A stretch of DNA of 64,000 nucleotides from Alphaproteobacteria bacterium (GTDB lineage Bacteria; Pseudomonadota; Alphaproteobacteria; DSM-16000; Inquilinaceae): the NCBI GenBank assembly GCA_028281265.1, contig JANQKE010000117.1, forward strand, positions 1 to 64,000, read 5' to 3'. Below the pieces are notes generated by a model. The model had not been told where the DNA came from and made no database searches. It worked only from the letters and a program-made list of their open reading frames with translations. Shown piece by piece: positions 8,814 through 13,161 of this stretch. Within the stretch, counting starts at the first letter, position 1, and the number at the start of each line of letters is the position of its first letter. The position numbers and the translations under genes are program-made.

Positions 8814-11696
8814 TTACAGCGCCCCTGTCGGCAGCCGATCGGCGGCGATCGTACCGGCGGTGAGGTAGGACTGCTCGCCCGTCAGCGTCCCGCTGAAGAC
8901 GAACTGGCCGACCACGCCGGCGACCGGGTCCGACCCGCCGGTCACGAAGGACGCCTCCACCCCGCTCAGATCCGGATGGATCGTCAGGTCCGGGGAGACG
9001 ATCGACACACTCTCCAGATGGGCGGGGTGGAACCCGGGATCGCCGCCGGACGCCGCCAGCGAGCCGGTCACCGTCATCCCATCGAAGTCGGAGATCGTGA
9101 AGTCCGACATTCGGGTCGAGAAATCATGCACCTGACGGTAGTTGCCGGCGGCGATGTAGGCATGGCCACCGGTGAGCACATTGCCGATCGCATGCCCCTC
9201 GAACGTCGCGGTCCCCGCCAGCGGAATCTCCGCCACATCCGGCACGCTGCCGGCTGCCCAGGTCGCAAGATGGACCGAGAGATACGGATTACCTTCCCTC
9301 CCGTCCTCCACCTCATTGAGGGGAAAGAAGAACTCGGTCGCAGCCCACCAGCCCCATTCAATGTAGTCGCACGTGCACAAGGTCACCGCGTCCGCTACCC
9401 AGTCGGTGTCGGGGACCAGCGTGTGGGGAACGACGATCCCGGTGGACAAAGGAAACGAGGTCGAGATCTGTGTATCCAGGTTCGACAGGGTCGCATCGGT
9501 GATGACCGATGGTGTCGCACCGTACCGATCGTCGTCGATGAACGAGTCCGCATCCGAACCCATACCGTCTCCGAACGGCAGAAACAGCGCGTACACGTCG
9601 CCGTCGGGATCCAAAGCCAGAAGATCGACGTCGACCAGAAGGCCGTTCTGCGCCGCGTCGAAGGTCAACTCGAACCCGTCACCGTCGGTGAACATCGGGA
9701 CGGCAGCCAGGATGCCGCCTTGTATCTGGGCTTCCGCGATACCGGCGCCGTACCCCGTCAGCGTCCGGGAGGTGCGCCCGGGCCCTTCGACCCCGGATAC
9801 GTCCGGCACCAGACCGGTCAGCTCCGCCGGATTGACGAAGCCGAAATGGGTGAACGCGTCCTCCCCACTTCCGGGCAACGTCGTGAACGGCACGCCGTCC
9901 AGAATCCTGCCGGCTGACCAAAAGGGATCGAGAACGCCTTGGTCATCGACGGTTGGCTCGAGATAGCTGAGGATGAAAGCGTCCAGATCGTCGCCGTAGA
10001 AGGAGGCATTGACACCGGGCAAGGAGTCCGTTCGTCCTACAGACATCACCGATGCGGATGCGCGGGAGTCGATCCGGTAGCTCGAATGATAGGGCTGGAC
10101 GATGTTCAAGATCTGCGGGTTGAAGTCCCGGTCGACATCACCGATCGCCGCGATCAGCAAGGACCGCTGGTCCGGCCCTTGCCCATCGATGGACAGGGAC
10201 GCCTGCAGATACGGCGTGAAGGGTTCCTGCGTCCCCGGCTCCTGGCTGTGCTCTACCCCGATGAGCCCGGACGACGGCTCCAGGATGTAGAACGGCGACA
10301 CGGCCGCCCCGCTCCGGTCGAAACCGAATTGCGGCGGGCTGAACGGGACCAGGTTGTCCCCCTGAACGGGGTCGGAGTGGACATGGTACTCCCGCAACTG
10401 CCGCTGCGTCGGGATCTGCCCGGAATTCGGCGTCGGCTCACCGAAGAAGAAGAAGAACCGCTCGTCGGGAAAGGCATCCGGCTGGCCGAACACATACTGC
10501 AGCGCGCCGCCAGCCAGGATGTCGGAGCCGCCGCTGATCGTCCCGAAAACCGCATTGCCGGTGTCGAAACCGGCGAACGCTCCCCCGTCAACCGGTCGCG
10601 GCAGCGTCAGGAGGGCACCGGCTCCGTCCTGAAACGAGACGGTGTCGTCGGACAACGACAGCGTGCCGACGGCCGTGCCCAGCAGGTCCCGCTCTCCCCC
10701 CAGAAGACCGATCTGGGCTGTCGGCCTGTCGGGAATCACGAAACCGCTGGTGACCTGATACTCGAACGAACTCGCCATCAGCCGGCCCTGCAGCTCCGTC
10801 TTGGGCTCGACGTCGACCTCGTCCTGCACGCCCTCGACGACGTCGTTGGCGCTGTCAGGCACGGGCACCGGACCGTCGTTCGTTACCGCCGTCACCACCT
10901 CGCCATCGACCAGACCACCATCCACCGTGGGGTCCCCATCCGGTCCCAGGGTGCTGCCGAGCATCACCACCTCGGTGTCGCCGACCCGATCGTCCGTCGG
11001 TACATCCGTCGCCCCGGCCGACCGGCCGGACTGGCCGTCCAGACGCTCCAGGGAACGGCCGATGGCCTCGGAGCCGGCTCGGCCGACGGGCGGCAGGTCG
11101 GTGCCCCCGCCACCGACCGGGATCCGCTGCCGGGTGCCCGGGATCGTCAGGCGGCGCTGCGTGCCGTCGGGCAGCCGGATATCGGCCCATTCACCGAGCA
11201 TGAAGGTGACGACCGTCTCTTGGGTGGCGGGATCGACATCGATCAGCGTGCCGCCGCCCCGGATGCCGATCGTGGCCGACGGCGTCCGTACCGTCACCTG
11301 ATCGTCCTGCTTGCTCAGCGCCCCCCCGACGAACCGCATCAGCCCCTGGGAGAAGCTGACCGTCAACTCGCCCGTCCCTTCGTTGGGGTCGTAGACGAAG
11401 CGGTCGATCACCAGCCGGGCATTGGGGCTGACCGTCAGCGACGAGCGGTCCCGGAACAGGATCTGAGCCTGGCCTTGCGCGTCGGTCTCGATCTCCTCTT
11501 CGAAGACGAGCTCGGTGCCGATGAACAGCGTGCGCTGGGAGGCGGCAGGCGGCGTGCCGAAGGCGCCGTCGTTGACCGCGCTGGTCACGCCGATCTCGAC
11601 GGCCGACGCAGGCGCCACGCCCATGCCCATGGCCAGTGCCACCACCGCCGTCGCCGCCGATGGCCGCCGGATTCGGTCATTCCGCTGCATCGTCAT
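8814..11696 (-). CDS. Secreted FecR-domain protein with Slam-substrate-like C-terminal barrel
   Basis: A predicted exported protein of 960 residues (ATG 11696; an ATG at 11723 adds 9). A signal peptide ends near ASAVEIG, with no lipobox. Residues about 50-200 form a FecR-type domain: VFEEEIETDAQGQAQILFRD, SSLTVSPNARLVIDRFVYD, VRTPSATIGIRGGGTLIDV. A long unclassified middle part follows, with an aromatic CTCDYIEWGWW patch. The last 135 residues resemble the 8-stranded TbpB-like barrel of Slam-dependent surface proteins: GTATFEGHAIGNV, VHDFSTRMSDFTISDFDG, EASFVTGGSDPVAGVVGQF and a final LTAGTIAADR. It lies 67 bp downstream of the Slam-like gene in the same operon, so I infer it is that protein's cargo. 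The FecR assignment is firm; the barrel assignment rests on motif pattern. Confidence 0.8.
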   Translation of the reverse strand: MTMQRNDRIRRPSAATAVVALAMGMGVAPASAVEIGVTSAVNDGAFGTPPAASQRTLFIGTELVFEEEIETDAQGQAQILFRDRSSLTVSPNARLVIDRFVYDPNEGTGELTVSFSQGLMRFVGGALSKQDDQVTVRTPSATIGIRGGGTLIDVDPATQETVVTFMLGEWADIRLPDGTQRRLTIPGTRQRIPVGGGGTDLPPVGRAGSEAIGRSLERLDGQSGRSAGATDVPTDDRVGDTEVVMLGSTLGPDGDPTVDGGLVDGEVVTAVTNDGPVPVPDSANDVVEGVQDEVDVEPKTELQGRLMASSFEYQVTSGFVIPDRPTAQIGLLGGERDLLGTAVGTLSLSDDTVSFQDGAGALLTLPRPVDGGAFAGFDTGNAVFGTISGGSDILAGGALQYVFGQPDAFPDERFFFFFGEPTPNSGQIPTQRQLREYHVHSDPVQGDNLVPFSPPQFGFDRSGAAVSPFYILEPSSGLIGVEHSQEPGTQEPFTPYLQASLSIDGQGPDQRSLLIAAIGDVDRDFNPQILNIVQPYHSSYRIDSRASASVMSVGRTDSLPGVNASFYGDDLDAFILSYLEPTVDDQGVLDPFWSAGRILDGVPFTTLPGSGEDAFTHFGFVNPAELTGLVPDVSGVEGPGRTSRTLTGYGAGIAEAQIQGGILAAVPMFTDGDGFELTFDAAQNGLLVDVDLLALDPDGDVYALFLPFGDGMGSDADSFIDDDRYGATPSVITDATLSNLDTQISTSFPLSTGIVVPHTLVPDTDWVADAVTLCTCDYIEWGWWAATEFFFPLNEVEDGREGNPYLSVHLATWAAGSVPDVAEIPLAGTATFEGHAIGNVLTGGHAYIAAGNYRQVHDFSTRMSDFTISDFDGMTVTGSLAASGGDPGFHPAHLESVSIVSPDLTIHPDLSGVEASFVTGGSDPVAGVVGQFVFSGTLTGEQSYLTAGTIAADRLPTGAL

Positions 11697-11763
11697 GGCC
11701 CCACGTGCTCCGCTGCTTGCCATCCCCGATCGACGGATGCCGGAAGCGGCTGCGCGCCTTGCG

Positions 11764-13161
11764 CTAGAACCGTGCCGACAGGCCTCCGAGCACCGAGGAG
11801 TTGGTGTATTTGTTGATGTCGTAGTTGGAATGCCTGAGCGTCTGCTCGACTTGGGCGGTCGCCGAGATCACGTCGGTGATCGGTGCCGTCAGCCCGGCCC
11901 GCAGCCGGAGTTCCCGGTCGCGCCGTTCATCGGTCTGCAAGGGTTCGGCGGCATCGAACACGCTGAAGCCGACCGTCGCCGCCGCCGTCGCCACCCATGT
12001 GCCGTCCAGCCGATCGATCGGGCTGTCGAAGGCCTGCAGCACACCAAGGGTGGCGCTGCCGGCCACCCGGCTCTCGAAGTCCTCATCCGCCCAATCGCGG
12101 CTGGTGCGCACGACGCCGGTCACCAGCGTCTCGGCCGAGACGGCATACCGTCCCTGGAAGGATCCCGTCAGCGTCAGCCCATCCCGATCCGAGCCGTTCG
12201 GCCGCGCCCCGGTGTCGGTGAAGTCCCGCAGACTGCTCCGCACATCCGCCGTGACGGCGAACGCCTCGGCAGCCTGATGGCTGACGCCCAGGCCAACACC
12301 GGCGGCATAGTAGTAGGGCTGCTGGCCGAGCCGCACGATTTCGGCATGGCCGAAGGGACGGATCGAGGTCGCCTCGCGGCCGAACCGGGCCAGATCGATC
12401 CGCGGCCCGCTGTCGACGGCGAGCAGCGCGACGTTGAGGTCGTCATCGTCGAGATAGGCATTGGCGTAGACCGAGGCGTTGCTCACCAGCGCATCGCCTT
12501 CGAGGCCGATCCGGTACCGGTGGGTGGCCGACCCCGACGTGAACAGGTCGACGTCCTCCCGCCGCCGTGACTCGTCATCGAGGCGGAACTCGAGTCCCCC
12601 CAACGTAACCGTCTCCCCGCCCGGCGCGGCATTGGCGTTGTCCTGGTAGCGCAGGCCGGCGAAGATCTGCCCCGTCCAGCTCACCGGGCTGCGGCGATCG
12701 TCGATCTCGGCCAGAAACCGGTTGACGCGGGCCTCGACCTCCGGCGGCACGCTCTCCACCTCGAGCGCTTGCCGGAAATAGGCCTCGGCGACGTCATAGG
12801 ACTGCATGCGGAAATAGAGAACACCGAGTTCGAGACGCACCCGCGGCAGATCCGGGTTGAACAGCAGCATCCGCTCCAGCGCGGTGATCGCCGCCTCCGG
12901 ATCGCCCAACCGGCTCGACACGGCAGCATACCGGAAAGTGATATCCAGGTCGTCGGGTTCGGCCAACATCGCCTCGAACAGACGCTGCTGCTCCGCCTGG
13001 AGTTCGTCCACCGTGAGGTCCGAAATCCCTTGGGCGATCTGTTCGATATCAGAGCCGGCACCCAGACCATGCACCGGGGCGGCGCCGTGCGCCCCGCAGA
13101 CACCCGCCATCCCAATACAAACCACGAATGTGCAGGCGGCGACGGGCTTCAGATACCTCAT
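11764..13161 (-). CDS. Slam-like TPR/beta-barrel outer-membrane protein
   Basis: A predicted outer-membrane protein of 465 residues. It has a signal peptide (MRYLKPVAACTFVVCIGMAG), then TPR-like helices at about 50-155 (ITALERMLLFNPDLPRVRLE, VLYFRMQSYDVAEAYFRQAL). From WTGQIFAGLRYQDNANAAPG at about residue 165 it is a strand-rich barrel ending in GGLSARF, a terminal Phe beta-signal. This is the layout and size of Slam/DUF560 surface-lipoprotein assembly modulators, which move barrel-bearing substrates across the outer membrane (type XI secretion). The start at 13161 is preferred over 13188 because GGGGAG lies 8 bases upstream. The FecR/barrel protein follows in the same operon. Confidence 0.8.
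   Translation of the reverse strand: MRYLKPVAACTFVVCIGMAGVCGAHGAAPVHGLGAGSDIEQIAQGISDLTVDELQAEQQRLFEAMLAEPDDLDITFRYAAVSSRLGDPEAAITALERMLLFNPDLPRVRLELGVLYFRMQSYDVAEAYFRQALEVESVPPEVEARVNRFLAEIDDRRSPVSWTGQIFAGLRYQDNANAAPGGETVTLGGLEFRLDDESRRREDVDLFTSGSATHRYRIGLEGDALVSNASVYANAYLDDDDLNVALLAVDSGPRIDLARFGREATSIRPFGHAEIVRLGQQPYYYAAGVGLGVSHQAAEAFAVTADVRSSLRDFTDTGARPNGSDRDGLTLTGSFQGRYAVSAETLVTGVVRTSRDWADEDFESRVAGSATLGVLQAFDSPIDRLDGTWVATAAATVGFSVFDAAEPLQTDERRDRELRLRAGLTAPITDVISATAQVEQTLRHSNYDINKYTNSSVLGGLSARF

Follow-up and report, generated by a model that had tools for sequence, protein, structure and literature searches.

Two adjacent genes in an alphaproteobacterium of the Inquilinaceae (GCA_028281265.1) are well supported as a Slam-cargo pair. 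We consider it probable that the outer-membrane protein P0002 is a divergent type XI secretion system (T11SS) translocon, that the FecR-domain protein P0001 is its dedicated cargo, perhaps anchored through FecR, and that the pair may take part in signalling to a cyclase; the topology and the signalling are the parts of this explanation that we infer. The pairing is far beyond chance, since the two genes recur next to each other and in the same order across dozens of alphaproteobacterial genera and families.

The gene pair and its outer-membrane protein

The genes lie in a window of 64,000 nucleotides, the whole stretch of DNA that was analysed (contig JANQKE010000117.1, positions 1 to 64,000), to which all coordinates refer (Table 1). 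A preliminary description had read a two-gene unit on the minus strand, and this was borne out: two intact ORFs, P0002 followed by P0001, both on the minus strand, fill positions 8814-13161 exactly, with a gap of 67 bp between them. The start of P0001 is the ATG at 11696; an alternative in-frame ATG at 11723 would give a protein of 969 aa. The FecR domain that had been placed at the N-terminus of P0001 matched PF04773 (residues 68-165, E=1.1e-10, 42.2 bits as compared to a cut-off of 24), the three C-terminal motifs that had been quoted were all found in this protein, and the TPRs and C-terminal beta-barrel described for P0002 agree with its PF14559 match and AlphaFold2 model.

Table 1. Features of the P0002/P0001 locus (window coordinates).
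Feature	Residues	Coordinates	Strand	Basis or remark
P0002, Slam/T11SS-like outer-membrane protein	465 aa	11764..13161	-	ends ...GGLSARF
P0002 periplasmic TPR domain, seven helices	37-157	12691..13053	-	PF14559 E=3.2e-9; AlphaFold2
P0002 14-strand beta-barrel	160-464	11770..12684	-	AlphaFold2; Slam-barrel HMM E=7.1e-30
P0001, predicted FecR-TbpB-like cargo	960 aa	8814..11696	-	Sec signal peptide, without lipobox
P0001 signal peptide, cleavage after ASA	~1-32	11601..11696	-	read from sequence
P0001 FecR domain	34-220	11037..11597	-	PF04773; pLDDT mostly 85-97; Foldseek PupR
P0001 disordered linker	223-300	10797..11030	-	pLDDT <50; linker after FecR in nearly all relatives
P0001 middle beta-rich region, possible first lobe	301-640	9777..10796	-	moderate pLDDT
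P0001 handle domain	644-757	9426..9767	-	AlphaFold2; HMM built here
P0001 CxC motif, directly before WGxW strand	774-776	9369..9377	-	
P0001 C-terminal TbpB/NHBA-type 8-strand barrel	779-954	8835..9362	-	AlphaFold2, Foldseek

Scans with published family models gave only hints. In a direct Pfam scan at the curated cut-off, P0002 had no hit to SlipAM (PF04575) at all; a direct scan gave a sub-threshold match to TPR_Slam (E=0.0022), and a direct family scan a weak match to EpsL. A direct Pfam/NCBIfam scan of P0001 returned neither TbpB_B_D nor slam_lipo above cut-off, the slam_lipo match covering residues 811-883 (E=0.026, 14.8 bits as compared to a cut-off of 80). Alone, such sub-threshold matches to TPR_Slam and slam_lipo are no proof of a Slam pair. 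The search of the source genome with PF04575 was likewise empty, which is an artefact of the model and not a real absence.

The relationship became evident with a Slam-barrel HMM that was built from the barrels alone of six proteins of the Slam family, none of which falls in the FecR-paired clade. Among 2646 ORFs, P0002 was the top match outside the training set (E=7.1e-30), and the best background ORF was no better than E=1.1. The reverse profile retrieved all six Slam-family barrels, with weak matches to two (E=0.001-0.004), and alignment of the P0002-family and Slam-family barrel profiles with hhalign gave a probability of 99.8% over 285 columns. Homologues of P0002 were present in 33 of 143 related genomes, mostly of different families, and 15 of 32 aligned homologues matched SlipAM (best 3.4e-34). 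A direct homologue in genome G110 (35% identical, E=5.6e-64) and a close homologue in G098 are both above the SlipAM cut-off, and both are adjoined by proteins with FecR and a barrel. Thus, the kinship with DUF560 that had been proposed for the partner was missed by the Pfam model in P0002 itself but recovered in its homologues.

In the AlphaFold2 model of P0002 (pLDDT 91), seven helices make up the TPR domain and 14 long strands the barrel. Structures predicted separately for the two proteins thus conform to the preliminary description, with a 14-strand protein and not an unrelated porin for P0002, and an 8-strand barrel at the C-terminus of P0001. The fold search of P0002 returned BcsC and PelB as top matches, together with porins, and is unable to tell a Slam barrel and other porins apart; no Slam structure was among the listed matches, and the PDB sequence search retrieved generic TPR matches only. 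P0002 might therefore be taken for an unrelated TPR-barrel exporter of the PgaA/BcsC/PelB or EpsL type, or for a porin, with an incidental neighbour, a reading for which the BcsC, PelB and weak EpsL matches speak. We regard it as highly improbable, given the Slam-barrel HMM score, the 14 strands instead of 16, and the presence of a FecR protein at 72 of 80 loci with this family; identity as a polysaccharide exporter was rejected on sequence. The Slam-barrel HMM, hhalign and AlphaFold2 agree on a Slam-family protein with 14 strands, as had been claimed, and we conclude from homology and fold that P0002 is a divergent member of the Slam/T11SS outer-membrane proteins and probably a translocon.

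Domain structure of the FecR-barrel protein

The signal peptide of P0001 ends in ...APASA-VEIG, and inspection by eye found no lipobox and no cysteine at the mature N-terminus, in agreement with the preliminary description. Of 95 proteins with FecR and a barrel, 16 have a cysteine near the start of FecR, which, as judged by eye, mostly falls within the hydrophobic core of their signal peptides and not at a cleavage site. Lipidation of these proteins was therefore considered and set aside as unlikely.

The AlphaFold2 model of P0001, calculated with 30 relatives as input and without templates, has a pLDDT of 72.6. Its leading PDB matches were TbpB from several species (E=1e-7), the C-terminal barrel of NHBA (target TM 0.71) and fHbp, all of which represent classical types of Slam cargo. 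Over the whole chain, TM-scores to TbpB stayed low, at about 0.3 or below, probably owing to a different arrangement of the domains, and the weight therefore rests on the barrel matches. The FecR part resembled PupR and other anti-sigma regulators in Foldseek, and its main NCBIfam matches were the Leptospira outer-membrane proteins LipL45 and Lsa33. Searching the PDB by sequence with P0001 gave no match.

Relatives that carry FecR and barrel in one chain matched slam_lipo (down to 1.2e-10) and TbpB_B_D (2e-4), below the cut-offs. A cargo-barrel HMM, built from the barrels of proteins adjoining the Slam-family outgroup proteins, ranked more than 20 FecR proteins ahead of any unrelated ORF, although P0001 itself scored only 4.6 bits. 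Profile against profile, the barrels of the FecR proteins and of the Slam neighbours aligned with a probability of 97.6% (hhalign, 3.9e-12). The TbpB-like barrel that had been claimed for the C-terminus is thus upheld by AlphaFold2, Foldseek and the slam_lipo and TbpB_B_D matches of relatives; the HMM comparison was sub-threshold for P0001 alone and positive at the level of profiles. The large middle region had been called unclassified, which does not hold for its TbpB-type handle. The remaining beta-rich part, modelled with moderate confidence, is conserved in relatives and may be a first lobe; the alignment to TbpB spans several hundred columns.

Residues C776 and G782 were nearly invariant among 30 relatives. 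A C-x(1,2)-C pair precedes the W-G-x-W strand in most of the FecR-barrel proteins (P0001 residues 774-784, window 9345-9377), and similar pairs occur near the end of some barrel-less FecR partners (L070, L073 and L082). The pair may form a disulphide or a metal site.

Homology, fold and gene pairing mark P0001 as the probable dedicated, non-lipidated cargo of P0002, with secretion as the predicted consequence.

Distribution, cargo architectures and CHASE2 cyclases

The single-protein scan of genome contigs with P0002 found nothing, and the alignment query of the family found 197 relatives. A set of 80 loci from named genomes or bins was compiled, with genera such as Roseibium, Stappia, Rhizobium, Agrobacterium, Mesorhizobium, Aureimonas, Pleomorphomonas and Reyranella. 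The FecR gene present at 72 of these loci lies directly downstream of the outer-membrane protein gene at 70, and FecR and barrel are fused at 61, which confirms the co-occurrence of Slam-like and FecR-barrel genes across alphaproteobacteria that the preliminary description had suggested surveying. At L147, L161, L165, L191, L192, L206, L209 and L224, the stretch examined contained a P0002-like gene but no FecR gene.

The smallest cargo architecture consists of FecR and a bare barrel (about 408 aa), and proteins with FecR, middle region, handle and barrel measure about 800-1080 aa. In L106, L107 and L203 (about 1620-1650 aa), two complete middle-handle-barrel lobes are present, reminiscent of the two-lobed TbpB. 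The partners with FecR only are about 280-340 aa long, several with CxC or CxxC near the end. The linker behind FecR has a median length of about 120 residues in the relatives. The phylogenetic tree groups the FecR-paired outer-membrane proteins in a single clade distinct from the Slam-family outgroup (SH-aLRT 99), with P0002 inside a clade of 16 rows, the partners of which all have FecR and a barrel. The barrel was gained or lost about 9 times on this quick tree, in which some of the FecR-only labels may be contig-edge effects. The existence of barrel-less partners indicates that the barrel is not required for the pairing, and since FecR is retained while the barrel varies, FecR rather than the barrel is the constant partner of the outer-membrane protein.

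The family is linked to CHASE2 adenylate/guanylate cyclases. Such a cyclase is encoded within 5 kb at 30 of the 80 loci, where we estimate roughly 1% or less by chance (genomes with any CHASE2 genes have one to seven), and at 27 of these 30 the outer-membrane protein, FecR and cyclase genes follow in this order on one strand. Annotated examples of the three-gene order are found in Shinella sp. H4-D48 and Paracoccus aminophilus. Among the genomes sampled, CHASE2 was encoded in all 27 with a FecR-paired outer-membrane protein as compared to 43 of 116 others (p=1.7e-10, uncorrected for genome size), an association that genome size may inflate. No CHASE2 cyclase adjoins P0002/P0001, which falls outside the three-gene module; the single CHASE2 cyclase of the source genome is on contig C144, unlinked to the pair, and would therefore have to act in trans. 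This cyclase (771 aa) is encoded divergently from an ORF of 1094 aa rich in FG-GAP-like and RTX-type repeats (L142:287-6021). In Shinella, genes for NHLP bacteriocin export come after the three-gene operon (L143:13022-15239).

These patterns bear on the interpretation of the preliminary description, in which the barrel is a tag that exports FecR and the middle region to the surface, and on its fuller form, in which this whole cargo reaches the surface or the medium, soluble or attached to Slam, and does not signal. T11SS cargo that is soluble and non-lipidated has been described (PMC8406197), FecR-like folds occur in LipL45 and Lsa33 of Leptospira, and the source genome lacks a linked cyclase. 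Export of the whole protein nevertheless leaves unexplained why the pairing persists without a barrel and why CHASE2 cyclases are linked to the family and universally co-occur with it. We therefore consider it unlikely, if the least unlikely of the alternatives, and the notion of a barrel that simply carries FecR to the surface is unsupported or incomplete.

Proposed topology and relation to known systems

We propose instead that P0001 would first be exported by Sec, after which the TbpB-like handle and barrel very probably cross the outer membrane through P0002. The FecR domain, on its long flexible linker, has about an even chance of remaining in the periplasm near the TPR domain of P0002, where it would replace the lipid anchor of classical cargo. 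From there it might, more tentatively, relay binding at the surface to the inner-membrane CHASE2 adenylate/guanylate cyclase, which would give a signalling route from the outer membrane to cAMP. The combined scheme is a type XI-like translocon that serves signalling, its cargo lodged across the outer membrane with the TbpB-like lobes outside and FecR, in control of a CHASE2 cyclase, inside; it is put forward with marginally more reserve than the relay step. If true, FecR would take the place of the lipid anchor and of the sigma-factor output alike, in an undescribed surface-to-cAMP pathway of alphaproteobacteria. To our knowledge, the ligands of CHASE2 cyclases are largely unknown, and the pair is a candidate answer to how extracellular proteins reach these enzymes.

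A parallel is found in S. meliloti, where cAMP signalling in response to an external protein requires NsrA and CyaK (PMC7529298, PMC13001267). An ORF of 1219 aa on pSymB, in a record that carries no gene names, was identified as NsrA on the basis of its site beside a CyaK-type cyclase and the published barrel residues 600-1200; it combines a FecR domain (E=2.3e-15) with TPRs and a barrel, and CyaK comes directly after it. The NsrA receptor is thereby newly read as a FecR-TPR-barrel protein; its FecR domain goes unmentioned in PMC7529298. The ORF leads directly into the gene of the CHASE2 cyclase (L145:3229-8837). FecR, TPRs, an outer-membrane barrel and an adjacent CHASE2 cyclase are common to NsrA-CyaK and the P0002/P0001 family, but NsrA unites the first three in a single chain, has a barrel that does not resemble Slam and lacks a TbpB-type lobe. 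The barrel HMMs found nothing significant in NsrA, which was rejected as a homologue of P0002. By analogy, the P0002/P0001 family looks like the parts of NsrA split over two proteins, with a Slam-type barrel and a TbpB-like lobe.

From this parallel, P0002 could be an outer-membrane receptor or plug barrel into which a periplasmic P0001 docks its TbpB-like barrel from the inside, forming an NsrA-like signalling complex. The union of FecR, TPR and barrel in the NsrA receptor (PMC7529298) and the occurrence of FecR-only partners are consistent with such a complex; it appears distinctly unlikely, however, as the Slam-related barrel is present in P0002 and not in NsrA, and C-terminal TbpB-type barrels are common to predicted T11SS cargo (PMC12282271). 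One observation counts against FecR-to-cyclase signalling as such: the S. meliloti FecR protein SMc02177, encoded near cyaD1, is dispensable for signal perception (PMC5498481).

The FecR-type periplasmic domain is shared with FecA-FecR-FecI and PupB-PupR-PupI, as reflected in the fold match to PupR. In contrast to these systems, no TonB-dependent receptor, sigma factor or anti-sigma segment in the inner membrane is known for P0002/P0001, whose neighbours were read as ORFs, and the proposed output is a cyclase; since FecR in P0001 directly follows the N-terminal signal peptide, there is no cytoplasmic anti-sigma domain. In the BiofilmReg operon of Burkholderia, a secreted LysM-FecR protein is encoded beside a CHASE2 histidine kinase (PMC5192318), a system that differs in having a kinase instead of a cyclase and neither a Slam-like outer-membrane protein nor a barrel. 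A retention-module model matched the FecR region of relatives at L085 (E=1.4e-6) and L074 (1.4e-5) and gave no match in P0001. The matches make an N-terminal periplasmic stopper conceivable, although LapA-type adhesins differ from P0001 in being giant adhesins that take the T1SS route.

Slam/T11SS loci (DUF560, PF04575) likewise combine a TPR and 14-strand outer-membrane protein with a neighbour that has a C-terminal TbpB/NHBA-type barrel. The P0002-family proteins differ in falling mostly under the DUF560 model and forming their own clade, and P0001-type cargo in starting with FecR, lacking a lipobox and belonging to a family linked to CHASE2 cyclases. A 2025 survey of cargo lists about ten architectures, unified by C-terminal TbpB-type barrels, and FecR goes unmentioned (PMC12282271). 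In the open-access literature searched, we found no paper that links FecR to Slam, to DUF560 or to type XI secretion. P0002/P0001 may thus be a variant T11SS with a cargo type missing from the published survey and possibly a new signalling route. This would extend T11SS to a large alphaproteobacterial clade mostly missed by the DUF560 model and suggests that its exporters can perhaps serve as signalling devices. The source genome encodes a second Slam-like outer-membrane protein (419 aa; L093, G000:C179:8500-17500), which is flanked by proteins of 303 and 307 aa with lipobox-like N-termini and TbpB-type barrels, the conventional T11SS arrangement.
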